The notes beneath the pieces are model-generated. The model had not been told where the DNA came from. It searched no databases and was given only the letters and a program-made list of their open reading frames with translations. A stretch of DNA of 64,000 nt from Deuterostichococcus epilithicus (taxonomy: Eukaryota > Chlorophyta > Trebouxiophyceae > Prasiolales > Stichococcaceae): positions 1,922,001 through 1,986,000 of the forward strand of contig JAVTLE010000007.1 in NCBI GenBank assembly GCA_033439295.1, written 5' to 3'. This document shows positions 15,859-61,502 of this stretch, piece after piece. Within the stretch, counting starts at the first letter, position 1; every line of letters begins with the position of its first letter. A program made the position numbers and the translations under genes.

Positions 15859-16166
15859 GACTGCTGGTGTGCGCTGCTGTGTCTGTAGCAACGCAGTGGT
15901 TGGAACGATCAAGATGAATCTGCTGAGGGCTTGTAGATGACTAGATGTGAAACAGAGACATCGCTCGGCCTGCTACGCTAGCTGCCTCCTGGCACCAGCC
16001 GCGGGGTGACGTTCAGGCTCACGGTTCTGTCCCCTGCACACCCTTAGTCACCTAGACAAAGGTAGCTGCAAGCAATTAGGTCGTGCAGCTGGTCGACAAC
16101 GACATTTCCATTGTTCAGCTGCGTATAATCAATCACTCTGGTGCTCACTGCGCTCCACTCCAGGCG
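15859..16166. other. Intergenic region between CURT1 start and MPS1 stop
   Basis: This holds the CURT1 promoter side and the MPS1 3' UTR; both genes are on the minus strand. Nothing else is seen. Confidence 0.4.
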
Positions 16167-22100: not shown

Positions 22101-24548
22101 CGCGTGCCGGGGGGTCCTCCTCCGGCGACACATTCTCGTTGGCGGTGTCGTCTGTCGCACGGACCGCACCGCCCTCCTGCCCCCCGCTGAGCCGCGCGGC
22201 CGGCCCCAGCCGTGTGCCCAGCCTCCGGAACCCTGGCGCACCAGGACGCTGTTGCGGTCTTTTAGCACGCACATCGGCTGGCCACGCTTTCTGTTGGCAC
22301 AAAGCCCCGCTGAGCCCGCAAGATTCTTTTTCTGCCACAGCAGCATCGCCAGTCTATTAGTTCCGAAGAGGTGATGCGCCTGCACCTGGGCCCTTTGGGC
22401 GCGGTCCCGTGCCGCGGTCTGTGAAGCGCAACAGCGAAGCCGCCACCCTCGGCGTGGCCTCGACCGCCGGCTTGACCGCAGCGGAACTGCATCGCAGCTC
22501 GACCGTCTCGGCCTCGCCGCCAGACTCCCGGCTGCTGGTGCTGTGAAGCGTGTTGGCGCCTGGAGGTTCAAGACAGCAGCGGCGTTTTGCAGCCGATCGC
22601 CCACAGGCAAGCCGTCACTGGTGGAGGTTTGCAATGAAAGACAGCAATCGGGCCTGTTCCGAAGGGTGCGCAGCAGTGTCAGGGTTCAAGGTCGTGCAGA
22701 TAGGCCGGCCGGCGCCATGCAATGGAGAGGAAGGTGAACGCGTCATGGCCACTCACCTGCAGCTGGCGTGGTCAGCAGCCGCCCGCCGCTATGGATGGAC
22801 TCGGTCGAGGAGGCATGCGTGGTGTGCGTGCCGCCAGAGCCGCCTGCAGCAAGCAGTCGCCGTATGTATCACATACCCTGTGGCGACTTTGCAGCCTGGT
22901 CTTGTAGTGCACAGGTGGGGGAGAGCCCCCTTTCCCTCCTATGTGACGAGGCATGCGGCTGGGATGTGTTGAGGCGTGAGTGCGGGTTGCTGCAGCAATG
23001 CTGCGCAAGCGCCAAGGCATGTGGACTCTGGAAAGGCTCGCCTGAGTAGGCGGTCTTCTCGTCCAGCACCAGCGTGTGCAGGCTGCGCGGTGGCTGCAGG
23101 GAGTCGATGGTGAGGCCGCCAGTGTGGCCGCCCAGCGGTGGGCGCCGGCCATGTTGCAGCGCATGTGCCGACATGGCGCTGTCCAGCCCACGGGGGACGG
23201 CCTGCGCCGGAGGCGCGTGCAGGCAGCATGTGTGAGCACCGAGGAAGCCGCACACGTTCATGGACGCACAGCCCAAAGCTCAAGTCCGCCTGCTCGTGAT
23301 ACAGCGACGGTGCCGTCTCTGGCAGAATCCCGGTCAGCAGCTGGTGCCGGCTCGCATCGTGCAGCAACGATGTGGCTACAGCTCACCGAAAGGGCGGCGG
23401 GCGGGGCGCCGGGCGTTGCCAGGCTCGGGCGCGCGCCGAAGAGCGCGTGCGAGCCAGGCGTTGGCGCGGCTGCAGGGCCCCGCGGCCCCGCAGCTGGCGT
23501 GCCGAACAGCGCCGCCTGCGCCGGCGGTCGCCCCAGCGAGCCCGACGGCCGCCCGGCAGCGGCCAGCGCCGCGGGCGTGCCGCGATGGTCCCCCAGGTCC
23601 AGCTGCCGCAGCATGGACTGCAGCATCTCCGCTGGCGTCGCGCCCGCCGCGAGCGCCTTCTGCAGGATGCTGACCGCCTTTCCGTGGTTGCCTGTGCATT
23701 GCGGCAGGCCTCATTGCGCCTGACCAGAGTGGCGGTGGGCTGACGGGGTGCCCTGGCGATATCTGTCCAATTGCTGTCCCGTTGCCACGACAGGGTGTGA
23801 CCGCCGCCATGACCTCCCTGCGCTTGTCAGTGCACAAGGCAGGGCAGGAGACATGCATAGCATGGCAGCACACCTGAGGCGGCCTCCAGCGAGGCCCACT
23901 GGTGTTGCAACACCGCGCTGCGCGAACCGACACCCTGCTGCTTCAGCATGTAGATGTACCCCCGGGCATCGGCCTCCGACGCCCGCCTGCAGCGACCATG
24001 AGACCTTGGAGCCCATGAGCATCGTCTTGCTGCTGGTGCTGGGTGGATCAGGCGACAGAGGCCAGGCTTGCGAGGCGATGCTGCTCACCACAGGCGACGG
24101 AGGTACTTGCTCAGGATCTGCATGTAGGTGTCGTTGGCGGAGTTGGCTGCCGCGGGAATGGTCTGCGCCGCCAGCTTCAGCAGCTGCAGCAGGTCGGCCC
24201 CATTGTCCCGCTGCGGCGCGTTCTTCAGGCACAGCTCCTGTGCACAAGAGTAGCTACTCCGTGGCCGCATTGACGGTGGGATTGCGCTTTGCGCATCGAG
24301 CAGCAGCTGCTGTGAAGCTTGCATGTTCGCAGCATGCACACATTGACGGGATCGCCTCAGCCATGCAGGCCCACCTCATGGCGCAGGACACGGGCCCAGG
24401 CCTCTGCGGACGCCACGTCCGCCAGCAGGGCGCCGTGCAGCGCCTGGCGCTGCTCGTCGCTGACCGGGTACTTTGCGACCAGGCCCGCGAGGTGCTGCTC
24501 CACATTCCTGAGCCGCTGCTCTGCCTGGGCGCCCTCAGCGTCCGCCAT
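16167..24548 (-). CDS. MPS1: MPS1/TTK dual-specificity spindle-checkpoint kinase with N-terminal TPR, about 1226 aa
   Basis: MPS1 is a kinetochore kinase of the spindle assembly checkpoint. Twenty-one exons join in frame: 24548-24375, 24237-24089, 23986-23874, 23691-23387, 23201-23042, 22843-22757, 22559-22386, 22232-21919, 21517-21428, 21175-21104, 20856-20740, 20582-20488, 20301-20182, 19994-19517, 19313-19164, 18725-18570, 18091-17942, 17702-17625, 17440-17225, 16930-16823, 16541-16167. The first four encode the MPS1/Bub1-type TPR region ([19 protein letters not shown], then [12 protein letters not shown], aligns with human TTK). A long disordered middle follows, with a glutamine-rich block before the kinase. 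Kinase motifs: [99 protein letters not shown] is MPS1-specific. An Ala-rich C-terminal tail follows. Two GC donors (after 23042 and 17942) are needed. The frame-consistent model is strong; the middle exon edges are less certain. Confidence 0.93.
19640..19850 (-). repeat. Polyglutamine-coding CAG/CAA tract in MPS1
   Basis: The large exon 19994-19517 encodes several runs of 7 or so glutamines with Pro, His and Lys between them, just before the kinase domain. Reading the same DNA in other frames gives poly-Ser, poly-Ala or poly-Leu, which explains the long shadow frames on both strands. Confidence 0.85.
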
Positions 24549-30202: not shown

Positions 30203-31164
30203 TCATGCCACATGCTTCACCAATTGCTCGAGCGCCGCCCTCGCGTCCTTGGCCAGCTCCGACTTGCCAGTCTCTTCGAGCACCTGCGCATGGGTCCGCG
30301 AGACGATAGTATGCGTGCCCGCACGCGGAACGCCTGGAGGACCACAAATTACCAGCAGCATTAACTTACCATGACGAAGGAGAGCATCTTCTCTACGTTT
30401 GTGATGCGGCTGATGCGCGCTTGAAGCGCCCGCTCTGACATGGTGCCAAGCCTGTGACGACACAAGCTCAAGCTCTGTAAAGTGCACGTTGCGGCTCTGG
30501 TCAAAGCCGAAACCTAGGCCGCATCACCTTACCTGTACATGTTGTGGCTGTGCAAATTGGTCATGTAGTTCGCAACTTGGTCGTCTGTCATCGTCTCTAA
30601 CGGCTTGTTTTTAGGTTTTATACGGGGTTTGAGAGCGCTCCTGCAGGCAGACATGTCGTCGTCACCCTCCTGCGCTGCATATGAAGAGCTGCACAGTCAC
30701 AACAGCAGCAGGGCTTCGCGATGCGTGTCTCACCTGAGCGGGCTGACAGCAGGCGACTCCTTTCGAAGCCGCGCTGAATGCCGTGAGGGCTGTGCCAGAG
30801 GCTTTGTGCACGGCAGCTGGCCCGCCTGTGTTGCGCAGAAGGTGACCACGCCATGTTTGCAAGCGTTGTGAATGTGTCGAGAATCGGCACCCGAAGTTAG
30901 CTGCCATTGCGGTGATCGTGCAGCACGCTCTGGCACGCCGCGAATGGTTTGCACTGGTGCCTGGTCGCGACACCGCATCGTCATTTGACTCGCCTGTTTT
31001 GATTGCCGGCGCGATGGTCTGTTCTGTTGTAGGTGCTGCGCCGAAGCCAGCAGGCCCACAGCCTCCATGGCGGCGCGATTCTCAGCTATGCGCTGCCGGC
31101 GCTCCTCTTCCAGTGCGTTGTGCTCTTCAGGAGCTCTGGCATTGCTCTTCAGGACCTCTGGCAT
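30203..31164 (-). CDS. Small basic protein of unknown function, about 177 aa
   Basis: Five exons join in frame: 31164-30994, 30825-30734, 30640-30533, 30451-30370, 30283-30203 (TGA). The N-terminal part holds an acidic/basic helix (ALEEERRQRIAENRAAME), then a basic Ser/Pro stretch (RRSARL-like: SRHSARLRKE). After that come PRIKPKNKP and a helical C-terminus (MSERALQARISRITNVEKML, then ETGKSELAKDARAALEQLV). The E-x-x-R-x-x-R-I-x-x-N pattern followed by basic motifs occurs in several nuclear plant proteins, such as WDR76/CMR1-like and CDCA7-like ones, but the match is too short to name a family. The intron after 30994 needs a GC donor. The ATG lies in a 22-bp tandem repeat, so the true start could differ. 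Confidence 0.62.
31121..31164. repeat. 22-bp direct tandem repeat at the start of the small unknown gene
   Basis: Two copies of TGCTCTTCAGGASCTCTGGC plus AT (31121-31142 and 31143-31164) differ at one base. The unit is not a multiple of three, so the two copies read in different frames in the protein. Confidence 0.9.
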
Positions 31165-32485
31165 TGCTGTGGAGGGGGGCCGTGTCTTCGAGCAAGCAAT
31201 TCGTTGCCTGAATCGTGAGGAACACGCCACCCAAAATGGTCCGTCACGCAGGTGGCTGGCGACCTCAAATTCAAACCTAGCAGAATACTCCTCGCAAGCA
31301 CCGCGGTGCAGCAAGCTGGGCACCTCTGATGACGAACGCGGTATATGAATAAATGCAAGGGACCGACTCGCAGCAAGTGTCGCAGACACAAGTACTCAAG
31401 GTGGCGCTGCCATGTCTCACTCAGGCTCGCCAGCGTCCGCTACGCTGCAGCAGCGCAACCAGGTCTATGTGCTCCTGCCGTCTGGACCTGGGGCGACAGC
31501 CCGTTGATTATTTTACAAGTACTGATGGGGGAGTCGAGATCAACATCAACGACCACGGGAGACCCGACGAGGTGCATACCTTGTTGCACTGACAAGGTGA
31601 GTCAATTCCACGTGGCCGGAGATTTCACACGCGCGCTGGCGCCTCCGTACCTTCATACTGCAGGCTTCACCTAGCTTTCGAGTGATCTGCCCCTGCTTCC
31701 CTGAACTGCTAGCCTGATGATTGGCGGCCCTAGCGAAGTGTTTAGCGGTCGAACGACAGCAGAGACCCTGCTCCAGCCGTGGGAGTAGGCGTCAGTCCGT
31801 CCTGCAGGGCGTGTGTGGGCGCTGCGGTACAGCGGGCTTGAAGGGCTCCGTTTACACGGCTCTCATTGATTGAACTGCGCTCCACACCGATCACTCGGTC
31901 GCCAATCCGAGGCAGTGCTGTATAGACGCCCGCACGTCAGCCGCCTCATCGTCCCCCCGGCCAGCCAGCAGGTGCGAGATACGCCCTCACGCGGTTGCTT
32001 CTCGGACCGGGTGTGGACTGCCGTCTGCTAATGCCTTGTGACTCACAGCTGTGCTGTCGCATATTCTTACTGTAGGCCTTCTGTCTGCCGGGGGGTAATC
32101 GCCCTTCTGGTGTGTCTTGTGCAGGTGGGCGGTCGATTCGCCCTATACTGCACGCACCAGCAGCAACATTGCGGTGTGCAGCAACCGCAGGGGATCGTGC
32201 AATTCCTGCACAGCATGCGCGTGAATTGACCTGCGGCAGCTCGCCGCGAATCAGCTGACCCGTACGCAGCACACATGGAACGACTCCGGTCCGGGGCGTC
32301 ACGCACGGACGGCTTCGAGAGTACGCCACTGTTGTTGCTCTGGTCGCACCTGTTTGCAGGTCTCTGCTACATGCTGCTGCCACATTCTGCGGGCCAGTGG
32401 GCAGATAGGCCACCGGCTGCGTGCTTGGGACCGCAGGCGACTTGTCGAGCCGGCAGACGCTCCTGACGGGGCGATGCATCTCCAG
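31165..32485. other. Unresolved 5' region of the propeller-kinase gene and divergent promoter
   Basis: An ATG at 31412 opens a short plausible first exon (MSHSGSPASATLQQRNQ) with a donor after 31462, but no verified exon links it to the coding exon starting near 32486. The region must also hold the promoter of the minus-strand unknown gene. Confidence 0.35.
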
Positions 32486-35400
32486 CGTGGAGCAATGCAA
32501 GGCTGCATCTGCCACGCTCCGCTGCTGCGTGCAAGCGGCGACCTCGCACACAGACCGCTGCTGCGCGCTGCTGCGTGCGGCGGGGGCGGCGGTAGCAGCG
32601 CTCGATGAGGCAGCCAGCGCCGCGGGGCTGCGCGACGAGCAGCTGCGCCGGCTTCAGGGCATCTGCGCCGCGGTCTTGGCCGGCATCGATATGGCCATCA
32701 TGCGCGTCAAGGTGTGCTGTGACACTGCGGGGCATCGCTCAACGAGTGCTGTCGGCGACGAGCGCTAGCACATGCGAGTGCTGGCACACTTACACCAAGC
32801 AGTTCCACACAGCTGAGCTGAACTCCAGCGACCGAGCTCGCATTGGCATGCATTTGCAGGTCGATGGCAGGCAAAAGGCGTGGGCGCGCCTGGTGTCCAA
32901 AAATTCGGCGGCTGGCTTGCGGAAGTCGCACATGATCGTGTCCAGCTTCGTGCTGCTTACGCAGCAGGCCGTAGAACTGGCCGGAGACAGCAGGCTGCTG
33001 CAGGCCCCAGTGAACCAGAGGTGCGCTTGCCCCATGGCGCCTTGGCTGCAGATTGGTGCCGGTGCGACACCTCAAGCATGCATGGAGAAGGGGAACCTGG
33101 CATGCACCCACCACCTCAATGCCGCAGGTTGTTTTTCGGGGAGCAGGGCCACATGTTCCAGCAGGAGCTGCTGCCGCAGCAGTGCCAGCTCATCAGGTGC
33201 TGCCAAAGTCAAGTTGGCTTGTGCACAAGAATTCTTGCTTACAGATCAGTGCGCCCCTCAGGGCGTGCTGCAGTGCACCATCGCACATTTCTGTGCGCAT
33301 CCCAGGCGCCTGACAAGTTTACATATGACCCGAGAGCAGGTCCCCAGCCAAGGCAGACAGGGTGCGGTGCATCTTGTTCATTGGCAGCACGCCGGCAGAG
33401 CCGCACGACGAGGTGTGGTGGTCGGAGGGCGCCACCCGCCGCGGCGGCCTGTACGTGCACAGCCTCACCACCGGGGCAACGCAGGCATGCGCCACGCCAA
33501 AGACGCTCGCTGCTGTATCATGGTTGCAGTCCCTGTCTGCTGATCGCAAGTTCCAACAGCGCACTGGAGCCATGCTGTCTTGGCCGGATGCAACACCCAT
33601 GCAGGCTGTGGCCATGGCCGACCTGGCTGGTGTTGACGGCTCATGTAGGCGGGGACTATCTTTTTTGCAGGAGTTGAAGCTCCCCGAAGGCTGGGGCACC
33701 GTGGCCTGCCTGCACAACGATGGGCTCGGGAATGTGTGGGCAGGCTTTCATAGCGGCGCCGTTGGCATTTGGAGCCGCGTACAGCGCCGCCTCACCTGCA
33801 CGCCGCTGCGGTGCTGCGATTCGGCGGTCAGGCAAGCCCTTGCTGTACTCACCTTCAATCCTGATGCTGTTTGCAGCTGCCTTGTTCTCCTTTCGCTGGC
33901 TCACCATCCGTTCACTACTGCTGAAACACATGCCGGCACTGAGCCACGAGCAAGTCTGAATCCCTTGCTGCAGCCACGAGACTTCTGACCTGTCAGCTTG
34001 CCATGCCGCAGGGTGATCGTGGCAGATGGCTGCGGACACGCGTACATCGGCTCGCAGGCCGGCGATGTGGTTTCCGTACGGCTACGCTTCGGCTCGTGCA
34101 ATGGCACTGCCGTGCTGGAGGCTGCGCACTCGCTGCTTGTGCAGACCAACGGTGTGTGTCCTCAGCCACAATATATTGACAGCGCTAATCGGTGCTCTAT
34201 AACGAGATTGGGGATCTGTACGAGAGCCCATCAGACATGATGCGAACGAGAAAAGAAAACGCAGCCGGCCGCTGGCAGCACGCATGCCCAGCTGTTTGAC
34301 TGCCTTCACATGCTGCTCCCGCAGTCTCGTCCAGCGCGCAGCTGCACGCAGCGCACGAGGGCACCGTCATGGCAATCGCGGCGCTTGGCGGCCGCGTGTG
34401 GACGTCCGGTGGCCGCGGCGCCGCCGCGCGCCTGCGGGAGTGGTCCCTCTCCGGCGCTCTGCACGCCGACGTCGACCTCAGCTGCACAGGTCGCCTTCCT
34501 GGCTGAGAGCATGTTGTTGGTCAATTGCGTCAGCCAGCTGAGATCTCTCAGCAGGATGGCCCATTCCACAGAGCAGCTGGCAAGTGACGGACCTTGCACC
34601 TGCGCCCAACATCACATCAAGCGCGGCATGTTCGCGGCATTACCTCGTTTTGGCGCTGCCCAGCTGCCGAAGGGTATCAGCATTGCTGCAGGCGACTTTT
34701 GACATGGCAGAACATGATGCAGGCACCGCGCTCGCGCTGCTGCTGGCGCCGGCGCCCGGCTCTGGGGCATTCCAGTCGTCAGAGGCGTTGGAGCTTTTGT
34801 CAGGTGAGCACTACCATGCACGTGATGGTCCTCCGACGCCTGCTGGTCCCTCAGTTGCACTGCCAGGCCGTGTCATCATGTGAAACTGCGGTTGCCGCAC
34901 CTGTTCCTTTGGGTTCTAGGGTTAGCATGATAGTTCGGTGGTTTCGTTCAATGTTTGTTCAGAGGTTGTTGCCTACTTGAGACCTTCCTGCACACATGGT
35001 GCATGATGCCGCTGCAAAACACTGCAGGGCATAAGGACGGCTCCGTGCTGCTGTGGCTGGCGGAGGGCACGCACGGGCTGCAGCGACTGCGGCGCTTTGA
35101 GGCGCCTGCGGCCGCTGCCCCAGTGCGCGGCTTGGCGCTGTGCGCCGCATCCGCCCTGCTGCTGGTCGGGCACGCCAACGGTCTGGTGGTCGTGTGGCCC
35201 TTTCCAGGGGACCGGCCGGCGGCCGAGCAGCCCGTCTCCCAGAGCCGCGTGCTGCTGAAGGTGCGACCGCTGCACGCAAACCCTCTGGCGTCTGGCCTCT
35301 GCGCAATTGCGAGCACCCTCTCACTTTGTGCTCTGTTCAACGTTTGGGAGTGGCATTCCTGTACTGAAGGGTATGCCATCGCAGCTGCGCACAGGCGTGT

Positions 35401-38400
35401 GTAGCAAGGACACTTTTCTGCCTGCATGCGCAGGCTGTCGACAAGGGCGGCCTCCAGCACATGGTCGGCAGCGATGGCGCCGGAATCGTCTTCAGCGGCG
35501 CTTCCGGCATCGTCAAGGTGGCAGGGGTCGAGGTGGAGGGCGCCGCGGCTGCTGCTGGGCTGCTGCAGCGGCCCAAGCCGGCCGCCTCAGTGCTGCCCTC
35601 GCCAACATCGCGCCGGGTCTGTGGTTTCAGCTGCGGTCACTGTCACATGCAGTCTCTGCCAGAGGAGAGTTCGAGAGGTCAATGCTTGGAAGGCAGGCTG
35701 CCATTCAAGGGCGTCTGGCGATGAGACCGCACGGAATTCTGCGAGCCCTCTGCTTCTGCAGCCAGGCAGGCGCTTTCCTCGCTTCAGGTGAAATGATCCT
35801 CATGTGGCAGGGTGCCGCTGGCTCTGCAGGTGAGCCGCCTGGACAGCCAGGGCATCGCTGCCGCCGCGGAGCTGACTGCACGCACCTTGGGGCAGCTGTG
35901 CGAGGACGAGCAGCGCGCTGGCAACGCAGCGAGCAGGCGCTTCGACGTCCAGCGAATCACGCCGCTGCCAGGTGCGCGGGAAGCCCGGACACTCCTATTG
36001 GGTCGTGTCGATATCTGTGGAACATCGTCGGACCTAGGTGCTCCACAGCGGTGGATGCCGGCCCTTTAGTACACATAGGTACGTGGCGCCATGCAGAGCG
36101 GAAGCAGCGCCTCTACCGAACACGCAGCACTCCTTCTGGCACAGGCCTGAGCAGCGGGGCGTCACTCGCCTCAGCGCCGTCGCCACCGATGATGGGGGAT
36201 AGGTCCTCGAGCAGCCTGCAGCCGCCGCGCGCCGGCAGGGCCGACGGCGGCGGCAGCGGGGAGATGTATGACGCGCCAGCGGCGGCAGCGCTGGCGGCCC
36301 GCTACGCGGCACAGCACGTCATGTCCATGGGCGCCGCTGCCGGGCCGCCGGGAGGTGAGACGCATTCCATCCGGTGATGCCGCCTCCTGCGCGCCCTGTG
36401 CGACCCTGTTACCCTGCTCTCCTGCTGGCGGTTGCTCTCGGGCCGCCGGAGGCCTGCAGCCACTCTCATGCGACGTGGTGACCCGACGCATGTCACGAGT
36501 CCTCCAAGGAGCCAGCACTCGGGTCTGGAGCCCCCCTTCTCACAGGCGGCTTTGCATCGTGTGCAGAGCCCTTCCAGGTGGCTGAGGCGCAGCTGGTGCC
36601 GCCGCGACCGGGCCGCAGCCACACTCGCAGGTTCAGCGCCTCCGCCGTCATGCAGCCTATGGCCCCCGTGCTGCAGCGCTCCTCTGCCGACCCCTCGCCG
36701 AGCACCTCTCGCCTGCAGCGTGACCGGCAACACGGAAGGTCAGTCAGAGATAATGGGAGTTCCGCACAGGGTTTCGTAGGGCATCGTAATGTCTGCCTCT
36801 CGATTGCGACACATGTCCACAAATTTCCGTGCATCGTTGAGGTCAATGTATGAAAGCTGGTCAACATTGCAGTTCATGTGTGTGCAGCATGACAAATCTC
36901 AGCGACGCCAGCCGGGATGCTTCAGCATCCGCTGCCATCCTCCTGGCGACGCGGCTGCGGGAGAATGCAGCATTACATGCAGCAGACCACCAGCCATTCG
37001 GCGGCAATAGCAGTCCACCGCCACCAATTATTGACGGTGCGGGGAAATACCTGCGAGGTGTACGGCCTGCAGCACGCCCTCATAAGCTGCTGCCCACTCG
37101 TGCCATGCATACGGTCACAGCATCGGCACCTCCGTTTCCGGATTCGCCAGGGTAGATTCGCCTCACGCCCCGCCTCGCTTTTTTCATTGCCTACACTGGC
37201 TGAGGGTTCGCTCCCCATGCCTGCTGCAGACCCTGCCAGCGCGGAGAAGGCCCAGCTGGAGCGCCTGGCGGCGCGGATGCAGCTGGGCGGCGGCGGCACC
37301 CGCCGCACCTCCGGCGGCGGCGGCAGCACGGTCGGCCGCTCATCCGGCTCTGCCTCCAGCCGCCGCCCCTCCATGATCTCTGTGAAGGAGTCCGTCCTGG
37401 AGGACGGGGAAGCAGCGGCGGCCCCGGCCAGCAGGCTCACCGCGGGCGCACTCGCCGCCGCCGGCGCCACCCCGGCCGCCTGGTGCCCCAGCATCCCTGC
37501 AGCTGGCGCCGCGACCATCAGCAGCATCAGGCGGAACACCGTCGGCGCGCAGCCGAGTGTGCGCCGCCGGTCGACCGTCAGCCGCGCCTCCATGGACCGC
37601 CCAACGTCCATCGCCACGCACTCGGCGAACACTGAGTCCGCCTTCTGCCGCTCCACCTTCAATGCCGCGCGCCTTGCGCTGGCGGCGGACTACCGCGCCA
37701 CCCTCGCAGTGGACTTCCGCGCCAACTTGGCGGCGAAGGCGCCCGGCGCCCCCGAGGCCCCGCCCCCTGTCGAGCAGGCCCGGTTTCCCGGCGCATCCTA
37801 TGGCACTGACTACCTCCGCTCGCTCGGCGGGCGGCCCCCGGGGGACGCGGACGGCAGCATCGGCGGGCTCGCCGCCGCAGGGCCGCAGTCGTCCACCCAC
37901 ACGATTTCCGCAGACCAGGTGCTGCTGCCGCCCGCCTCGGCGCCGGTGCCGGTGACCCGCAGCGCCAGGCGGGTATCGGATCCCCACGTCCGGCACGCAG
38001 AGTTGAGCATGCCGCACTCGCGGCTGCAGCACGTCAGCACCAACGACAGCCCGCCGCCCAGCCTGGGGGCCCTCAAAGGCGGGTTCAGCCCTGCGGGCAG
38101 CCCAGCGGCCGGCGGCGAAGCCAGGGGGGGCACCGCCGCCAGCATCGGCCGTCGCAGCCGCGGCAGCGTCTCGCGGCACTCCGGCAGCAGCTTTTCGGAG
38201 CTGCGCACAGGCACTGCGGAGCAGGCGTCGGCGCTGCGAGGCGGCGCCATGGTGCAGCCATTTGTCCCTGACAAGGTGCGAACTGCGATCAGGGTCCTGG
38301 TGGCCTCTGCCCCGCCCTGCCGTGACCCGCTGCTGCGCCAGGCTGGTGTCTGCTTGGTGCTGCTGGCTGTTGGATCAGGACTGACGTGCACCTGACTTCG

Positions 38401-38690
38401 AAGTGTCTGACCATCTGGGGCGCAGAGCAAAAGAGTTGATGTGGCCTTCTGCAGGAGCTCGAGGCATGTAAAAGCGGTGCATTGGAACTATTGGGCTGTC
38501 TGCCAAGGAAAGGGATCAGTGTGTGGCCGTGACCGACGCTGGGTTGCGCGACCAGGTCTGCCGTCGAGCCTCTCATCATCCCTTGTTCAACAGGTGGCAG
38601 CACGGCTGGAGGCGCTGGGCATGCAGCAGCCGCCACCGCCGGCGCTGCCGGGCGCCATGACGGACAGCTTTGCCGGCCACGGGCACGCTG

Positions 38691-38722
<32 letters not shown>

Positions 38723-41700
38723 GCAGTGCCCACTCGGCTGCAGCTGCCGGGCGGCATGAGCCGGTGGCAGAAGTCGAGCAGCGGCGCTGAGGAGGCAGCC
38801 CTGCTGGCCGCGCAGCTGCTGTGGGACCGCCAGGTGGGATGTGCTCTTGTGTGACCCGCCACTGACGCACTGACTGCCCGAGGCAGAACGAGCGCCTGCC
38901 CCGCCGATCAAGTCTGTGCTGTGCTGCATTGCACGATGCCATCATTTATCGTCCTAGCCTGGAACACTGGGGCAAGCCGAATACGTGTCTCTTGCCTCCT
39001 CAAGGTGTGCGAATCCCTGTGTGCACTGCCTGCAGCAGCAGCGACAGCAGGACATGCATCAGCTGTACTCCCAGCCGCAGCTGTACCCGCAGTCGCCGCA
39101 GTCGCCGCCCCCGCTGCCGCCGCTGCAGCAGCAGCAGGGCACGCCGGCCGGCGGGCGTTTGCAGCGCCAGTCCGTGTCGCGCTTCTCTGCGCCGCGCGTC
39201 GGCGCCGGCTTCGAACGCTACCGCGCATCCGTATCGAGGTCGTCTATGCCCGCGGTGTCGTCGACGCTGCGGCGGCGCACGCCCGACCCGCAGCTCATCA
39301 ACAGCTGGTGCACCTTGCACTTCGAAGTCGCCCTGAAATCGCACCTTCCTGGCCCGCCCGTCCTGATCTCTTGTTGCTTTTGGTCATTGTGTGCCCCTCA
39401 ATGCTGCAAATGGTCCGGTGCCAGTGCTCCTGTGCAGCAACTTGCGCCTCGAGTGCCGGAGCCGCTGCTGTGCAGGGCCAACAGGGAGACGTTCCTCAAG
39501 TCGGCGGCGGGGCAGTACCTGGTGCAATTTGGGGACCTGTCCTTCAAGCAGCAGATTGGGGACGGCTCCGTGGGCCGCGTGCACCTGGGCAAGTGGCAGG
39601 TGCATGCGAACATTCCTTGAAATCCTGCGACTTCACAAAACAGCCTGCCTGGTCAGCAGATCAGTTGGACTGACGTCAGCAGCACGACCTGCTGTGCTGC
39701 TGTTGGAGGGGCCTGGTCGCCAGTGTACCTGCCTGGTGTTAGACTGTTGTACGGTTTTTCGTTGCAGTGTTGGTGTCGGGCAGGTGCCGGGTGCAGTCAC
39801 AATAACAACGGGCGGCAGCCCGACGCATGAAAGCTGTCGAGCGCGTACTGCAGTAAGCAGGGCTTGACGAACGGCGACGTCACGACGCCGCAGGAGACGG
39901 ATGTGGCCATCAAGATGCTGAGCAGCCTGGCGGCGATCGGCATCCGCGCGCCGGGCGGCGGCCGCGGCGCTGTGCCGGACACCAGCCGCGACAAGATGAT
40001 GGTCACTCTGGAGCACGAGGTAGTCCTGCGCATTGCGCACCCTGCCGCGCAACGCAGCAGCCACCATGTGCCTTGTGCGGGCTGCACCGGTAGCCTGGTT
40101 CATGCTGGTCACCGGGCATGTATTCGATGGAGGGACCTCGTCTGCGGCAGCGCGCGCCAGCGACACCGACTGTCGCGCGCCGGGCCGCAGGTCAACATCT
40201 TGGCCTCCATCCGGCACCCCAACATTGTGCTGTTCATGGGCGTGTGCCTGGAGCCGCCGTGCCTGGTCACCGAGTTCTGTGCCCGCGGCTCCCTCCACGA
40301 CGTGCTGCGCAAGGTACACACACACAACTTCCCTCCGCCGCTCCCCCTGGCGCTGCTTTGCTCCTCTGGCACTTGAGGCGCCGGGACGGGGTTTCCGGCG
40401 GGCCACGACTGACGGCTTCCAGCCGCACAGAAGGCGGACTGCTGCCCGCTTGCCTGCCAATCAGGAAATCCTGCATACATGCGGTCGCCCCGGTTGCTTG
40501 CTCGCTGCTGGGAACACTTGCTGCTGCTGTTCTGCGCAGGTGTCGGCGGCGCCCCGCGCCATGGGCCACCACCTGGACTGGCCGCGGCGCCTGGGCATGG
40601 CACTGGACGCCGCCAAGGTTCGTGCCAGCACGAAGTGCTCGAAGAGGGGCACGAGAACAGCAATCGTTGCCGGCAAGCGATCGTGCGCCCGGAAAGCATT
40701 GATACGCACTGGCATCCGGTGGCATTTCTCCTCGGGAAGCTGTCGTGAGCATCAACTTTGCGCATTCCATCAGTGCAGCCATACATGTCATGTGCTGTTG
40801 CATAGTCTGACAGTCCTCACTGTTGGTAAGCCAGGGCTTACATTGCCGCCTTCCTTGCTGCAGGGCCTGCTGCAGCTGCACTCGCACCGGCCAACCATCC
40901 TGCACCGCGACCTCAAGTCGCCCAATTTGCTCGTGGACAAGCACTGGCGGGTCAAGGTGCGGCGGCTCAAGACCTGCGATATCACTGACACTGCAGCCGG
41001 CAGCTGAGGCTGCCTGTGACATTGCGCCTGGCAGGCTGCCCTCTGCAGTCGCGCCGGAGGGCGGCCAAGCGCGGAAGCGGCCATGCAATGTCGTCAGAGA
41101 CAGGAGTGCGGCACGAGCCGAAGTGCTTGCTGCCAGGGTGCTTGCTGGAATATTACATTCTTGCCTTCAATGCTCACGAACTCACCACAGAACCATTCCT
41201 CCCGGCGCCGCAGGTGGGCGATTTCAACCTGTCGCGCATGGCAGATAGCGCCGCCGTCAGCTCCACCATGTCCGCCAACAACCCCCGCTGGCTGGCCCCT
41301 GAGGTCATCACGCTCCAGGTACACGCTTGCCCTCGACCTGCAATGCAACTGTGCCGGTCATACACGCTGCATGCACCCCTCGTAGGCGCTGCCAGCAGCA
41401 CCCGTGCCCTGCCCGCCCTGGATCGCCGCACCCCTGACTGCACGAGCTGCCCTCTGGACGAGGGCAGGTGGCGACCTGAAGGTTTCCCCTATCGACTGCT
41501 GACGCCACATGGTCGGGCGAAACCCTGATGCAGCGGGGTGCTGTGCTGCAGGAGTACGGCAGGGCGTCAGACGTGTACGCCTTCGGCGTGGTGCTGTGGG
41601 AGCTGCTCACCTGGCAGCTGCCCTTCGAGGCCCTCAACCCCTGGCAGGCGCGCGCAGCGGCGCGCTGGACGACCCTTGCTTCGCCAAACACAGAACTCAC

Positions 41701-44070
41701 ACAGACACGCACCTGCTGCAGCCAGGATCTTGTGTTGTTTTAACTTCTGGTCCACCTCCGCCAAGAGGTCTGCGAACCATGTCCAGCCCTTCCCGAACTC
41801 CAACCCTTTCTCACCTAGTGCTGTCAGCGAGTTGGGTTCTGACGGACACACCGCTCCGTCTGTGCCGCAGATCATGGTGGCGGTGGAGCGCGGGGAGCGG
41901 CCGGAGGTGCCGCCGCCCGAGGAGCTGCCGGGCGGCGCCTTCGTCGGCCTGCAGCACTACATCAAGCTCATGCGCCGCTGCTGGGCCACCGAGGCGCACG
42001 AGCGGCCGCCCATCGAAGAGGTGCGTCTGTCCTGCTCGATCAGCCGCAGCGCAACCGGGGCCGTTTCCTCTCCAACAGCATGTGCTCCTGCGGGCTCTGG
42101 TCGGCGCTCGCAGGTCGCCGAGCCGTGGCCTGAGCAGCCCTCGTCTCCAGGGCCCTGAACTCGGCGCCCGCTTCCGTGCAGGCCATCGCGGAGCTGCGCA
42201 TCCTGCTGGAGGTGGCGCACTTCGAGAAGAAGGCGCTGGCGTCGCAGGCCGCCGCGCCGCCCCCCCTGCAGCAGCAGCACAGCGGCTTCACCATCACGGT
42301 GCAGGACACGGACTGCGGCTCCGGGACGGAACCCGCCACCTCCGTGTCCTCTGCCGACGGGCTGCCCGCCGCCTCCACGCTGCTTCGGCAGGCCAGTCCA
42401 CCGTCGCGCTTCGCGCCAGACCAGGCCGCCCTGCCCAGCGGCTACGGCGGCGGCGGCGGCGGGCTCGAGGCCGCGGGTCGGCCACTCCACCTTGGCAAGG
42501 GCCCAGCGGGCGCGGCTGGCGGCGACGGCAGCCCATTGAGGGCGCCGCCATTGCCCGAGCTTGGCGGTGGCGGCGTCGGCGGCAGGGGCTCGCCGGTCAT
42601 GCAGCAGCGCATCGCGGCGGCGGCGGCGGCGGCGTCGGCAAACGCGATGTACGCGGCGACCGCCGTGGTGTCGTCCATGGCGGCACATCGCGGCGGCGTG
42701 CGTGTGCCGCCAACGCCCTTTGGCACACACCGCATGCCTGGCGACATCGCGACTGCCTCACCGGCGGATGTGGCCGCGATACCTCAGCAGGTGAGCACGC
42801 GGTGCATGCTGCTGTCTGCGGGCACGGCATCAGCAGCTCTGGGCGTGGAGGAATTAACAAAGATCGCGAAAGCAAGCAGGTCTGCGCTGCAGGAGCTCGG
42901 CAGGCGTGCGCCTCGTTGGAGGGTGGTGTACCCAGGTGCAGGTCTGGGTTTCATCAGCAGCGCGGCTGGATGACATTCATGCAAGTGCTGACGTCATGTC
43001 TAAACGTGGGCACAGGCATTCGATGCGGCGCCTGAGCGGCAGGCGCCTGACGCTGCGCCGCGGGCTGGGTGGGCCCAGCACTGGCAGCAGGGAGGGCAGG
43101 CGGCGGCGCTGCCCGGTGGCGGCGGCGATGCGCCCGCCTCGCTGCGCGCCCTGTTTGGCGGCATGGACACAGACATGCAGGTGTGATATACCTGCATCAG
43201 ACCGTGAGCAGTCCCACCAGGGTTGGGACTCTTGCCGTGTTGCGCACGGCAGTCTGGGTGTCTTGTCGGAAAGCCCTGACGCTGCCACCTGACACGCCGT
43301 CCCGCCATGTACACCTGGCCGCCACGCGTGACTGGAGCAGTGCCGCGCGACAGGTGCCAAGTCCCCGGCAGGGAGTGGCCGGCAGTCGGAGCGCCTTCGG
43401 CAGCAGCCTGTCGTCCGCCACCGGCAGCGGCATCCAGGGCGAGGGCAACTGGCCAGCGCCCGACTTCAGCAGGATACCGAATTATGAAGGCGGCGTCTAC
43501 ACATTGGACACGACGCTCCGGCAGCCACGAGGCCTCCAGCCTGACGCGATCAACGAGATGTCCGGCAGCGTGCGGTCCATCAGCATGTCGCCGGCGAAGC
43601 CACCGGGCGGCAGCGGCGCCGGCGCCGCCAGCGTGCGGCGCCGCTCCGAGGGCATCCCCCCACGCCCGCCCAGCAAGCTGACCCTGTCAGACCTCGCAGC
43701 CGGCGTGCCGCGCTCCCCGCGGAACCTGCCGACGCTCGCCAGCGGCACCCGCGCAGGGGAGGGGCCGTTTGCGCAGCTCCACGCGGAGCAGCAGCTGCAG
43801 ATGTCGATGGAGGGCGCCGCGGGCGCCGGCAGCCGCAGCAGACCCGCCGCCACCGGGGCCGCCTACGGCGGCGGCGGCAGCGGCAATGGCCGTGACCCCC
43901 GCGGCAACAGCGGGCAACAGGACTGCGGCAGCGTTGCCGGCCTCTACCCGATAGGCAGCGCCCCGGGGCCGGGGACGCCGTCGCTGCAGCCCACCCCCAA
44001 GGCGCACCGCGAGGACATCTCGCCGCTGTCATCAGACGGGCTCCCCGCGGCTGGAGACAGCCGATCGTGA
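32486..44070 (+). CDS. Large beta-propeller plus Raf-like (TKL) protein kinase, roughly 2,000 aa or more; 5' exon(s) unresolved
   Basis: A chain of about 28 exons runs in consistent phase to TGA at 44070. Exons to 33196 encode an Ala-rich helical region (LRAAGAAVAALDEAASAAGL; QAVELAGDSRLL), possibly like the MLKL-type N-terminal helical domain (inference). Exons 33340-35616 read WD40-like blades: VRCILFIGST, VWAGFHSGAVGIWSR, YIGSQAGDVVSVRL, GTVMAIAALGGRVWTSG, GHKDGSVLLWL, LLVGHANGLVVVWPF. A long Ser/Pro/Ala/Gln-rich linker follows (largest exon 37230-38275). The kinase spans 39476-42020: IGDGSVGRVHLGKW, TDVAIKML, IRHPNIVLFMGVC, ILHRDLKSPNLLVDK, GDFNLSRMA, NNPRWLAPEV, DVYAFGVVLWELLTWQLPF. A low-complexity tail ends the protein. 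DFG reads DFN. Donors after 33484, 33831 and 41647 are GC. One join (36354 to 36578) needs a micro-exon, such as 36454-36476, to keep phase; without it the locus could be two genes. Confidence 0.7.
38688..38722 (+). repeat. CAG triplet run encoding polyglutamine in the kinase linker
   Basis: About nine CAG codons in a row encode glutamines in exon 38594-38833. They are in frame with the flanking linker text. Confidence 0.85.
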
Positions 44071-44920
44071 TCGGGTCGCCTGGCGCTAGTTACATGGGAT
44101 TGCTCTTTGGTTTCTCACCGCTTGCCGAAGGCTTGATCTCGGCTGGCTGCCGTCGTCCGGCCTGGCTGAGGCGCAATAGGGGGAGGGGGGTGTTGGGGCT
44201 GCAACAATAGTGATCAAGTAGCGTGCCTGTGCTCTCAGACACAGCTGAATGTCTTGGTCTGATGACAGCATGTCTCCTGCAGCAGACGCGCTGGATCTCA
44301 TGCTAATGCTTTCTTCGGACAGAAAGAGCTTCAGCATCTGTTTGCCATTGACACCTTTCGGCCCTTTCTGATTCTGACGATGATGAGATGCGACTGCTTG
44401 CATGCAGCGCAGATTTGTATTTAGCTATCCCCGACGACCAAATGTGGTGTTGCCTGGCAAATGCGGTAATTAACTGGCAGGTTCGGTTCATCAATAGGGA
44501 TGCAGCCCTTTCAGCACTCAACGCTCTGAGCCGGCAGCTGGCAACGATCACAAGTGCAGAGCGGCGGATGCCAGAACACATGGCCCTTGCTGCAAGACGT
44601 GACTGCTAGCGTGCCGGCTGCTATGCTGCTGCACTACTCGTTAGCCAGTGGGCGTCGCTGGCGGGTGGCTAGCATTAGCGGCAGCCAACGCCAAAGCTAG
44701 TTGCATGTTATAGCATGACATGCCACCCCGTAACAGCCAGTTCGCCAGGCCCCCCGCCAAGCCCGGCGTGCCGCCGACAACATCGCCCCTCCTGCTCCCA
44801 CGCCGCAGTGCCGTGCCGCGCAGCGCCCGCCAGCAGAGCGGCGGCCCTGCCGCTCCCCCTCCCTCCCTTTCCAACCGGCGCGGCGGCGCCGAGGCAGCGT
44901 CGGCGGTCAGTGATCGACGG
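44071..44920. other. Convergent intergenic region, no gene seen
   Basis: These are facing 3' UTRs of the kinase and histidyl-tRNA synthetase genes. Proline- and arginine-rich open frames near 44720-45090 overlap the last HisRS exon and are shadows. Confidence 0.5.
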
Positions 44921-47900
44921 TCAGAGGTCTGCAAGGGGCACGTCGCTCTCGGTGCGCTCCGCCAGCAACTTGACGCGCACAGCGCCTCGGTCCCACTCCT
45001 CGCGCCCCACCATCACCAGCCTCGCCGCGGAGCACCTGCCGTTTTAGGGTCTGGGTTCAGGGTTTGGGCGACAGGCACGCCTCTGACCAGCTGACGGGTG
45101 CACCCCACTTGCAACCCTTCGTCTGGCGACATCCCAGGGCAGGGGACGGCTCTACTTCGGCGCTCGACCTGCGCAGATGAGGCACACACATGCCGCGGCG
45201 GCAGTGCCGTCCTGCCACCGTCTCACCCCCGCACCCCGGCACCCGCCCTTTGGTGCTACGGGTGTCAGAGATGTTTGCGAGCTGCTCGCGGGACTTCGGC
45301 GAGTCACCCTAATCAAAATGCGCCGTCTGTGTGCTGGATAGTGTGTGCAGCGGCGCGCACCGCTCGGCCTGCTTGAAGACCCACTTCATCTTCTTGGCCT
45401 GCAGCACCAGGTCGACGCGGCGCCCGGCGGCCCGCAGCCTGGCAGCCACGCCGCACGCTTCCGGCCGCAGCGACTCGTCCATGGCCACCACCATGTCGTC
45501 CACCTGCGCCGGGGGGTGAACCGGCTTTAAAATGTTCACGATTCCGATCCGCAGGATGGTTCAGACGTTACGGTTTGGAAGTCGGGCTGCAGTGCCTCAT
45601 CCGTGGCCCCAGCCTCTTCGTCCACCTGAAATTGTCCGCCTGAGCAGACGGTGATGGCAGGACTTCGAAGGATGAGAGGGGATATAGGTGGCGCTGCAGC
45701 CGGAGACGGCTCAACAGATGCCAGCCCGCAAGGGCGGTAAGGGCGCGAGCCTCGTGCTGCAGGTGCGGCAGGAGGCTGGCCCAATGGCGAGCCTCAACAG
45801 AGAGAGGCACCCCGATGCTCAGATGCAGGTGGGTCCGCAGCATGGTATGTGCACCTCGTGCCGCAGGTCTGGCAGGAGGCTGGGCTCTATGTACGCGACT
45901 CCAGGATGAGGGCGTTGCCGCAGCCGGAGGCGGCTCAACAGATGCCAAGCCGGCAGAGCAGTAAGGGGGCAAACCTCGTGCTGCAGGCCTGGCAGGAGGT
46001 TGCGCTCCGCGAGCAGTTCCAGGATGACGGCGTCGCCGAAGCCGAAGCCGGCGCACGGCTGCGCCTCGCCGCCAAATGTCGCCAGCAGCTGGTCGTAGCG
46101 GCCGCCGCCGGCGATCGCGCGCAGCTGCCCCTGTCGGTCGAAGGCCTCGAAAACAACGCCTGCGGCGCGCAGGCAGCCAGGAAGCGCGTCAGGGACGGCC
46201 GGGGCTCTGCCGCATCGGCTTGGCGCCTCCGAGATGCTGTTGTGCTGCTGACACGGAGGGCAGGCATGGGGGCTGGCTGCCAGAGGATCGGCGGCCCTTC
46301 AGATGCCAGCAACTTCAGCATATGCAGCAGCGGTGCAGGTGCAAGGGCAGTCAGCCACGTGCACAAGGCAGCTGCAGGAACCGCATCCACGAAAGCGCGC
46401 GCTTGCCTGTGTAGTAGGCCAGGCCACGCATGATGGAGGCGTCAAAGACCAGCCAGTCGGCGCAGCCGTAGGCTTCGAGCAACTGAAACAGCCGCTGCAG
46501 CTCCTGTGCCGTCTGCGCCCGCACCCACAAGTACTCTTGTCAGGACACCGGCCTGATTGAACGTGATCGTGCAATTTGTCGGTTGCCGGTCCCAGTGACT
46601 CGATTGGCCGAACGACTTGTGCAGACACGGGTCAGAGGCTTGTCTTAGAGGATAGTTTGAGCTCCGTTTGAACTCTGTGAGGCATCAGTGCCACCGCCGT
46701 CGCCGCCGCCGTCAAAGCCCGTGAAGTCCGTGAAGCTAGGCTGGGCGGGAGCCTGGCAGGTTGCGGCGCACCTCGCTGTTGTCGCCTAGCAGGCGGCTGA
46801 GGTCGGCCACGTCTGTCAGCTTGACCACCTCAAAAATGGCTGCAATGGCGTCCGCTCCGACCTCAAGCTTCTCCAGCTCTGCTGCCACCTGCAGAGCAGG
46901 AAGTTCCGGGGACTTTCTCAAGCTTGCCGGAGGGTTTCCTGTGCGAGCAGCTAGCTACAAAAGCGCACTAGGGCGGGGTTGCATAGCACGACACGGTGCA
47001 TTTGAACATGGGTAGTCTGCAGAGATAGGCGCAGGTTCGAAAGGGCGCACGCCTTCTCCTCGCCGATCTTGTCGAGCTTGTCAACAACGACGCACACCGG
47101 GCTGAAGGCCTCCGCGGGCACGCCGTTCTGCAGCAGCACCTGCTGCATGACCTTGCGGCTGGAGATCTGCAGCCACAGCGCCGTTTTATCAAGAGCTCAA
47201 GCGGTCAAACGTTTGTTTCCTTTTGAATTTCTCTTGTGCTCGAGACAGCTGGCATCTGCGGGCATGTGGTGGCACCAGGGGGCCTCCCAGCCGCCTAGTT
47301 CGCCAGAGGCTTCTGGCCGTGAAGGAATGCAACGCAGACCAGAGTTTCACTTGCCTTGATGCCGACATCATGGGCCCCGAGGCCGGCCGCCTTGAAGAAG
47401 GTGACCAGCGCCGCCAGCAGCTCCGCCTCCGCCTCGATGCCGGCAACGCCGATGATGTCCAGGTTCCACTGCCTGGGGGGCAGGGGCCGGGGTTTAGCGG
47501 GGTGTGCCGTCATCCAGCAGAGCTTCCGAAAGCTTCAAGCCGGCGAAGCCGTGGAAGGGAGCGGCCTTGGGGTCAGCCGCAGCTGCGGATCGTCCCTGTG
47601 CATGCCATGGCGTGCATGTCGACATTCCACGACACGCCAGCGCAGGTGTGCGGCACAGGCCCGGCAGGTGCGCTCACCAGTGCACTCTCCTGCGGCCCCG
47701 CGTCGCCCGCTCATACCGCCAGCACTGCCCGATCTGCATGGCAGCATTGGCTCAGGCATAAGCCGGTGCCCCAGTCGGCATGCCATACGCCGCCAGAAGC
47801 GGCGATGCAACTTGACGCTGCCCCCATCACAGTCATGAAGCACCGGCAATCATGAACCACTGATGGCGTGTCGAGCATGAACAAATTGCAAGAATACGCA

Positions 47901-49198
47901 GCGGCGGGCCGTTACCTGCGACCACTTTGCCGGCAGCTGAAGAGCCTTGCCCTTCTGCAGGGCCAGGCGCGCCAGACTGGGCGTCAGTTCAGGCCGCAGC
48001 GCCACTCGCCGCCCGCCCTTGTCCTGCGCTCCAGACATAGACATCACTCGTCCTTGCTGTTGCATCCAGGATCCGCTGTCAGCACTGTGCCTCACTGCGA
48101 TCCTGTGCAGTGCTGTTTACTGGCGTTGGCACCCACATGGCAGCAAAGTGCACAGGTGCAGTGGTATGCAGTTCTTGTCTCCCTGACTTGATTTCACCAT
48201 CTGCCATGCCTTCGCATGCCATGCAGCCTCCAGTGCCTGCTCTGGCTCTGACTTCCAGTCCATTCATATACCCCATACGGTTTCCCTTGCAGCATCCGCT
48301 ATCTCCTGCTGTTTCCGCCAGAACTTGGATAGCTGGTCGACGATCTCCTCGCCGCCCTGCTTGTTTCCCTGACCTGCCACGCCTTTGCAGGGCATGCAGC
48401 CCGGTGCAGTCCCCCATTTCGCGTCCTAACGTACACTCCGCTCCACTCCCCACAACTTGCCACTGCGAGCTCCACTCATCTGCTCGTTGTGTCACCCACC
48501 TCAAAATTGTACAGCTGGTCGACGATCTCCTCGCCGGCCTTGCGCGTAAACAGCTCCTCAGACTCCAGCACAGGCCCCTCCACCATCTCGAAGCCGAACT
48601 GCTCACCGACGGTGGACCACAGGCTGAACAGCCACTTGCGCACGCGCATGTCCTCCGGCAGAAAGTCCTTGGTGCCTGCGGCGTGGTGCCCGAGTTTGTG
48701 TCATGTTGGGAGGCATCGCCGCGCCGATCAGCAATGGGGCCAGCGTAAGAGTGTTTGTGGTGCGATGCTGCAGCGCATCAGGGCCATCGCCTCAAAAGCA
48801 TGAGAGGGCTGCGGATGCGTCCGCGGGCGGCCGGCACCTGGCAGGGAGTTGAGGTTGATCAGCTGCTTCTGCTGCTGCTGCGACGCAGGCGGGCCGCTGG
48901 CCGCTGCCTTTCTGCCACCCTGCAGCATTGCGACGTACAAGATCAGCACCGGCATACTCTCATGCGTTCGTAGCAAGAGATGTGGCGCATGACGGCAATC
49001 GGCCTGCAGCGCCACCTGTTTCGGCTGGGTGTCCGCAGGCGGCGACACCGCTGCGGATGTGGCGAGATCTCGCGTCGCCCGCCGGGGCTGCGGGGCGCAT
49101 GATCTGGCGCCGACCTGGGCGGGGCACAGGTGCAGCTGCTGCCAGCCGGCACTGTGCCGCAGCGCCCGCAGCTTCCAGCCTCGACAGAGCCACGGCAT
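44921..49198 (-). CDS. hisS: Histidyl-tRNA synthetase, organellar type, 500 aa
   Basis: A class II synthetase that charges tRNA-His, probably in plastid and/or mitochondria given its presequence ([19 protein letters not shown] and a following Arg/Ser/Ala region). Twelve exons sum to 501 codons: 49198-49016, 48919-48838, 48675-48500, 48023-47916, 47733-47678, 47472-47355, 47166-47053, 46888-46772, 46512-46407, 46159-45975, 45503-45361, 45035-44921. Motifs: [44 protein letters not shown] (motif 2), [53 protein letters not shown] with [21 protein letters not shown] (motif 3 region), and an anticodon domain ([28 protein letters not shown]). Donors after 46407, 47053 and 47355 are GC. The RRREHYQWN text of homologues reads RRRVHWQWN across a splice, so that junction deserves RNA support. 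Confidence 0.95.
45036..45070 (-). repeat. CCCTAAA-like motif forming the 3' end of the last HisRS intron
   Basis: Read on the gene's strand, degenerate telomere-type units (CCAAACCCTGAACCCAGACCC then TAAAA, in separate units) run to within about ten bases of the acceptor at 45036. They take the place of an ordinary pyrimidine tract. Confidence 0.7.
45689..45974 (-). repeat. Tandem decayed copies of a HisRS exon-intron boundary
   Basis: The end of the exon 46159-45975 plus the start of the following intron recurs at about 45850-45927 and 45689-45800, with scattered substitutions and length changes. The shared cores are the Leu-Pro-x-Leu-Gln-His-Glu coding end and an intron stretch with GGCTCAACAGATGCCA. 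The copies lie inside the intron and are not needed for the protein. Confidence 0.8.
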
Positions 49199-49726
49199 TG
49201 CGGCCAAGCTTGTCGAGCGGTCTCTCTACCAGGCAGTTAATTTTAGACACAACCAACCGACAGTGGCTGTGGCTGTGGTGGGCGGCTGCACCTCGAGAAA
49301 AACTTTCCCTGTTGGCCACCAGCTGCAACCACTCGCGTGTGCAGCCTGTAAAACAGACCACCTGGGATCAAGCCACAGGCGGCGATCACACCATTTTGTT
49401 TGGATGCAACTGTGCGACAGGAGGGCTGCACCAATCCTGATGTGAAGATGTTGCTGACATGCTGCCGCTCTGCTGAGCTGGATCGACGTGGCGCCCTGGC
49501 TTCCTTGTTGCAATCCAAGCACTGTGCGCCTGCAGAGCTAAGTTCACGTCTGTCCACAGCTTGTTCCAGGTGGCGATGAGAGCGCTGCTGAGCCAGAGTC
49601 GTGCATTGGCTTGCCGGGCTCGCACTTGCACTCAGCCTGCGGTTGTTTGTGGGTTATCGCAGCAACCCAGGCGCCGAGTCCAGCCTCTGGTAAATTCTTC
49701 TAGCTTCCTCATGTTAGAAACAATGC
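49199..49726. promoter_or_regulatory. Divergent intergenic region between HisRS and aminopeptidase P
   Basis: About 530 bases lie between outward-facing ATGs. It likely holds both promoters; no element could be named. Confidence 0.4.
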
Positions 49727-60904: not shown

Positions 60905-61502
60905 AGTGAAGTTGCGGCACAAGCGCAACCCCCTGATTTTGCATTATTAGAGATAGAGCGGTGCGGGCGCCGCATCATGCGCATGAGCAGCGAATGGATG
61001 GCCATAGTGCTTGCAGGCTTTTGCAGACTGTGAATCCTGTTCTGACAACCAAGCTACTCTGCGGTGGAGGCCACTCCAAGCAGTGTCTTCGCAACGACGG
61101 AGAGTGCCTTCAACGAAGCAGGCGGGTGAAACTTGACTCCAAGGCAATACAAGCTGACGGACGTTGCCAGCCGCTCAGTGCGACACGGTAGGTAATAATG
61201 CTCGCGGGGTCGAGGTTCAAACATGACCACCAGCCCTGCGCCCTCGCGGCCTCTGGTCACCTTTTGTTGGAAGAGGGTGAAGCTCGCAGTGCGTGTCAGA
61301 ACCTGAGAAGCTGCGTGCGCCGCGTGGCGTGGAGCCGCAGTTGTGAGGCGTGCGGTCAACTGACGTCCTCGTTTTAGGGCAGGTGGCAGTTGCGCTGTTG
61401 AGATCAGGAGCGACCTGGAGGATCTTAACATCATCAGCTAGCAAGGACAATCCGTCAGCGGACCAGCGCCAGCTCGCTGCTGCGGCAGCTGCACTCGGAG
61501 TC
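60905..61502. other. Intergenic region between ASADH and the PGM-family gene
   Basis: Both neighbours are on the plus strand. A 126-codon minus-strand frame spans part of it (61054-61434) but shows no family motif. No gene is supported. Confidence 0.5.

Follow-up and report, generated by a model that had tools for sequence, protein, structure and literature searches.

A candidate Raf-like kinase gene with an N-terminal WD40-like propeller in the green alga Deuterostichococcus epilithicus

Described kinase architectures and the locus

Raf and CTR1 kinases are regulated via an N-terminal sensor domain. In Arabidopsis CTR1, a long N-terminal extension precedes a C-terminal kinase, and the N-terminal domain is of another kind than a propeller. 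LRRK2 combines a TKL kinase with a propeller, the WD40 repeats following the kinase. Here, we study a locus of the green alga Deuterostichococcus epilithicus at which exons of a putative WD40-like propeller lie upstream of, and on the same strand as, exons of a Raf-like kinase. It is part of a stretch of 64,000 nucleotides (nt) of contig JAVTLE010000007.1 (positions 1,922,001 to 1,986,000, forward strand), which we call the window; positions are counted from its first letter unless another contig or locus is named.

The kinase domain is what the locus shares with CTR1 and the plant Raf-like kinases, as well as, if all exons belong to one gene, the placement of this domain on the C-terminal side of a long extension. 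It differs by reading DFN where CTR1 has DFG and by its propeller-like N-terminal module. A protein that unites a propeller with a TKL kinase recalls the ROCO/LRRK proteins, but the order of the two is reversed here. Pfam scans of the N-terminal 689 residues, the kinase piece and the exons of linker and tail yielded no Roc or COR match.

Proteins that combine WD40 repeats with a kinase domain are also described for Dictyostelium (14 kinases, from families other than TKL; PMC1420674) and Phytophthora infestans (one kinase, group OTHER; PMC3019232), i.e., these share the combination with our locus but are non-TKL kinases. For Chlamydomonas, PMC7279229 reports a large set of RAF-type MAPKKKs (names up to RAF79), some groups of which carry long N- or C-terminal domains. 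The term WD40 does not occur in the main text of that paper (0 occurrences). In the open-licence literature, which was covered partially, no description of WD40 combined with a Raf-like (TKL) kinase turned up; given this partial coverage, the absence is weak evidence of novelty.

The kinase domain and the propeller region

On the + strand, we observe a path of 28 exons from 32487 to 44070 that comprises 2,060 codons, preserves the frame with 0 internal stops and links the propeller region to the kinase (Table 1). We consider it probable that this path represents one gene with 28 or more coding exons (~32.5-44.07 kb, + strand) encoding ~2,060 residues or slightly more. When the propeller call is allowed for as well, the reading we prefer is one long Raf-like kinase that carries a WD40-like propeller at its N-terminus, held with some more reserve. 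The respective protein would comprise the propeller (residues ~159-496), a basic/Ser-rich low-complexity linker of ~776 residues, the kinase (~1286-1580) and a low-complexity tail. Exons were scored with a purpose-written semi-Markov gene finder (the decoder). The exons of the kinase served as its seed, and for retraining it used its own predictions from 190 kb of the genome plus the window. Because of this training on its own output, its exon scores are circular.

Three of the 27 introns of the final model are of the GC-AG type (33485-33670, 33832-34011 and 41648-41870). The last one, located in the conserved kinase domain, is well supported; the first one was chosen manually in place of a GT donor at 33455. 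Rfam (gathering thresholds) and tRNA scans of the whole window gave no matches.

The kinase exons (39476-42790, + strand) splice in frame and encode a complete CTR1/Raf-like kinase. The spliced piece matches the Pfam families PK_Tyr_Ser-Thr (E=1e-51) and Pkinase (E=1.7e-34), and its best match in the PDB is Arabidopsis CTR1 (3ppz, E=3.1e-53). Lower among the best 60 of 2,428 matches are several chains of MAP3Ks and of B-raf. The preliminary description had placed the kinase at 39476-42020, which is correct except that the domain extends slightly beyond, into exon 42182-42790. The spliced protein contains the glycine loop IGDGSVGRV as well as VAIK, LEHE, HRDLKSPN and DFN, i.e., the DFG glycine is not present (exon 41214-41318). 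This is a common kind of kinase variation, which does not by itself remove the protein from the TKL/Raf-like family. Based on the family match together with the catalytic lysine, the HRD loop and the metal-binding aspartate, we assign it to the TKL/Raf-like (CTR1-type) kinases.

Among the 46.8 Mb (21 contigs) of the genome that were searched, its nearest paralogue is found on contig C7 at 1799919-1800862 (loci L040/L042), with identities of 58, 52 and 66% over three matched pieces. This paralogue also reads DFN; DFG is found in 6/8 other kinase loci examined, and the motif was not located in the remaining 2/8. A low-complexity linker lies upstream of the paralogue's matched exon within the ~1.5 kb examined, which covers part of its N-terminus. 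We used the paralogue for one manual correction: the acceptor at 39894 was preferred to the decoder's 39861, which adds 11 residues, because it yields KWQ-ETDVAIK and thus resembles the paralogue's RWRETTVAVK. A kinase search of viral contigs found no relatives.

For the upstream half, the preliminary description had assigned beta-propeller-like repeats to 33340-35616. That these exons are coding is supported by the G+C content of third codon positions (GC3; 303/360 = 0.842) and a coding score of +0.090 nats/base. Concerning their fold, the four Pfam families matched at E<=10 are all propeller/WD40 families, namely Beta-prop_EML (3.5e-5), WD40 (0.0087), Beta-prop_WDR3_1st (0.017) and Beta-prop_VPS8 (0.15). 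The resemblance to propeller families is weak but significant, and none of the four matches reaches its curated cut-off (bit scores of 17 vs. 27 for WD40 and 23.9 vs. 88.2 for Beta-prop_EML). Seven PDB matches were obtained at E<=10, the best being a G-beta-like protein (0.0027) and the second an adhesin (0.06). Seven blade-like units were cut manually and aligned by hand, their MAFFT alignment being poor. In a leave-one-out profile test, 2/7 units beat 95% of 1,000 shuffles, such that the evidence for a repeat is weak. An RCC1-type propeller elsewhere in the genome (locus L010) is recognised far above its Pfam cut-off while the region studied here stays below, and we therefore regard the latter as divergent. 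Judging by its sequence, 33340-35616 is probably a divergent WD40-like propeller, probably of seven blades, which we do not file as a WD40 member.

No relatives of the propeller were found in the genome beyond the locus, in viral contigs or in prokaryote genomes, and none of the linker in the genome beyond the locus itself. A by-eye comparison of the genomic WD40 and TKL match lists (129 matches in one and at least 150 in the other) revealed no other same-strand propeller-then-kinase pair within 14 kb. Two looser arrangements were noted: on contig C18 (1780714-1787490, - strand), a WD40 exon match lies 5 kb downstream of a TKL kinase match on the same strand, and on contig C11 (2496317-2512566, - strand), one lies 14.5 kb upstream of a same-strand TKL kinase match.

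The N-terminal region (32487-33196) matches no Pfam family over its cut-off and no PDB entry at E up to 10. The MLKL-like (HeLo) N-terminus that had been proposed for it is hence dropped: hmmscan, whose filters drop weak matches, gave no match to MLKL_N (PF22215) at E<=10, and the sole match of this family in the genome (13.9 bits) lies on a different contig and not at the locus. No start codon was found for the long model, the exon 32487-32711 being without an early in-frame ATG. The decoder's own first exons (31412-32173) are not credible, one of them being 5 bases long.

Table 1. Features of the locus along the 28-exon path, with the basis of each assignment
Feature	Position	Strand	Basis or remark
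N-terminal region, family not assigned	32487-32711, 32860-33020, 33128-33196	+	coding score +0.080 nats/base
Probable divergent WD40-like propeller (7 exons)	33340-33484, 33671-33831, 34012-34151, 34325-34489, 34723-34803, 35028-35260, 35434-35616	+	Pfam matches below cut-off; best PDB match a G-beta-like protein
Left low-complexity linker (3 exons)	35830-35971, 36145-36354, 36567-36738	+	coding score +0.096 nats/base; no Pfam match
Weak bridging exon, required for phase in the one-gene model	36888-37057	+	score -6.5; GC3 32/57
In-frame ATG, possible start of a stand-alone kinase gene	37217-37219	+	further in-frame ATGs at 36917, 36965, 36977, 37277
Right linker with clustered R-R-x-S/T (3 exons)	37230-38275, 38594-38833, 39036-39307	+	no Pfam match in any exon
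CTR1/Raf-like kinase domain (39476-42230), first exons	39476-39599, 39894-40019, 40191-40313, 40540-40617, 40864-40956	+	PK_Tyr_Ser-Thr, CTR1 3ppz
CTR1/Raf-like kinase domain, later exons	41214-41318, 41552-41647, 41871-42020, start of 42182-42790	+	PK_Tyr_Ser-Thr, CTR1 3ppz, motifs
Low-complexity C-terminal tail (42231-44070)	rest of 42182-42790, 43016-43180, 43372-44070 (stop)	+	coding score +0.128 nats/base; no Pfam match

The join between the two halves

Whether both halves form one gene depends on the region around 36738-37230. Of the three frames of exon 36567-36738, a single one is coding (6.4 vs. -22.2 and -16.3), and reading through its donor to the stop at 36853 scores -21.5, where the median of 567 open intron stretches is -16.6. 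Since it codes in a single frame and the sequence beyond its donor is non-coding, we conclude that it is spliced onward. A direct splice from 36738 to 37230 is impossible because the phases differ. That is, one frame-preserving path through the locus exists as anticipated by the preliminary description, whose statement that nearly every intron keeps phase fails for this particular join. The bridging exon 36888-37057 is phase-compatible, has ordinary splice signals and scores above 98.7% of 311 open intron stretches of equal length. The decoder itself bridges differently (36567-36630, 36719-36738, 36986-37036).

When the bridge is excluded, GC3 does not jump across the join (578/685, i.e., 0.844, before 36738 and 1,179/1,320, i.e., 0.893, from 37230), and a difference of this size between two halves is seen in 4/18 other predicted genes. 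R[RK]x[ST] sites are found 7 times in the right linker (0.92 in shuffles), once in 36567-37057 (0.21) and 0 times in 35830-36354. TGTAA, considered as a poly(A) signal, is enriched downstream of predicted stops: for 34 of them, the following 400 nt contain 13 copies in total, with ~3.5 expected. It does not occur in sense within 30477-38466. It was not used and does not discriminate, being also absent from the stop at 44070 to 49347 and from the stop at 60904 to 63572.

Restricted to 31000-44075, the decoder joins everything into one gene (31412-44070). The cheapest split that can be forced within the linker costs 10.9 nats, lies between 37037 and 37229 and starts the kinase at ATG 37217. For calibration, we determined the respective costs at eight presumed true gene ends. 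They are 0 in five cases and positive in three that the decoder had wrongly fused, namely 8.2 nats between a semialdehyde dehydrogenase and its neighbour, 7.1 between ApaG and RCC1 and 3.9 at the stop at 44070. At most of these ends, Pfam supports at least one of the two partners (semialdehyde dehydrogenase, a histidine phosphatase, one short-chain dehydrogenase, p24, SGT1, ApaG, RCC1 and HisRS). The RING and U-box proteins, a second short-chain dehydrogenase and the first gene of locus L023 were named by eye or left unnamed. As a control, splits were computed within five genes taken as single (semialdehyde dehydrogenase, M24 peptidase, TTK-like kinase, pyruvate dehydrogenase E1, HisRS-like), where 23/73 introns cost <=10.9 nats (manual count). 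According to this model, the linker thus holds together somewhat better than all of the gene ends tested, by a small margin and with a tool that fuses too readily.

Several neighbours of the locus were recorded along the way. A HisRS-like gene (44921-49198, - strand) is convergent with the kinase gene at a stop-to-stop distance of 851 nt. The decoder's false fusion at 58196-63799 (+ strand) comprises an aspartate-semialdehyde dehydrogenase (stop at 60904) and a histidine-phosphatase-like gene 599 nt downstream. A long kinase gene at 15978-24548 (- strand; Pfam Pkinase, 2.5e-55) is presumably TTK/MPS1-like, a label we assume on resemblance, Pfam giving Pkinase only. Outside of the window, a single predicted gene of locus L010 (190-6200) contains both ApaG (DUF525) and RCC1 repeats; these are probably two genes, possibly a true fusion.

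Alternative readings and implications

A number of these results weigh against joining the two halves. From the 10.9 nats, 7 are the assumed penalty for an additional gene, and a split within the propeller (34490-34722) is even cheaper (10.1 nats). The five calibration ends of zero cost are biased since they were chosen where the decoder had already split. Furthermore, the decoder over-fuses: it attached the semialdehyde dehydrogenase to the gene next to it and ApaG to RCC1, and it continues beyond 44070 as far as 46471, across exons that are antisense to the HisRS-like gene. Its outcome depends on the gene penalty, i.e., values of -14/-9 yield 31412-63799, -5/-7 extend to 46471, -2 stops at 44070 and +2 breaks at 34702, within the propeller. 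The bridging exon is weak (-6.5 nats, GC3 0.56), with a lower score than any of the 124 exons in the self-trained model. The intron in front of it (36739-36887) has the lowest G+C content of the 27 listed (0.483), which would suit a gap between genes. Neighbouring genes on the same strand can lie as close as 488 nt (predicted) or 599 nt in this genome, such that the ~480 nt between 36738 and 37217 could hold a gene boundary.

The locus might thus consist of two same-strand neighbours, namely a propeller protein of at least ~620 residues that ends at ~36377-36892 and a separate Raf-like kinase starting from ATG 37217 or 36889. We regard this as a serious but less likely alternative. It fits the in-frame ATG 37217, the frame of exon 37230 being open upstream to 36893, the coincidence in position of the weak bridging exon and the intron of lowest G+C, the short gaps and the low split cost, as well as the nearest kinase paralogue being without a detectable propeller relative. 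On the other hand, none of the eight tested gene ends is as costly to split, and the left gene would be without a convincing coding end: extending it to the stop at 36853 scores -21.5, and an exon 36888-37155 running to a stop scores -24.7. The one-gene arrangement of propeller, linker and kinase claimed initially is favoured by a coding model which also fuses known or probable separate genes, and the kinase can start on its own at ATG 37217. The single gene scores better and is the more probable reading, for which DNA alone gives no proof. A further alternative keeps one gene but replaces the WD40-type propeller in its N-terminal half by another repeat fold or a degenerate region with superficial WD40 likeness. 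Matches that all stay below the Pfam cut-offs, the two of seven blades that pass the shuffling test, the adhesin among the PDB matches up to E=10 and the ease with which the RCC1-type propeller of the same genome is recognised all speak for it. We nevertheless deem it improbable, given that every Pfam family matched is of the propeller/WD40 type and that a G-beta-like protein leads the PDB matches.

If the locus encodes a single long kinase with a WD40-like propeller, the latter may serve as a docking or targeting part that holds partners, a membrane or a scaffold, with the linker acting as a flexible tether. A basophilic kinase or 14-3-3-type readers could act on the clustered R-R-x-S/T sites of the linker, and phosphorylation of the linker might free the kinase or shift it towards clients that the propeller holds. 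Within the regulatory logic of Raf/CTR1-type kinases, the propeller would take the place of the N-terminal sensor domain. A new domain arrangement within a large known kinase family is plausible. Whether it extends to a lineage-wide green-algal Raf-like class, in which a propeller on a phosphorylatable tether replaces the sensor domain, the kinase carries its own scaffold and DFG is changed to DFN, is a tentative and rather doubtful proposition.

If the exons belong to two genes, the locus holds two unremarkable neighbours and cautions against fused gene models in intron-dense algal genomes. If they encode one protein, it would be a green-algal Raf-like kinase with a built-in propeller scaffold and a case in which to examine how such kinases acquire inputs outside of animals and land plants.

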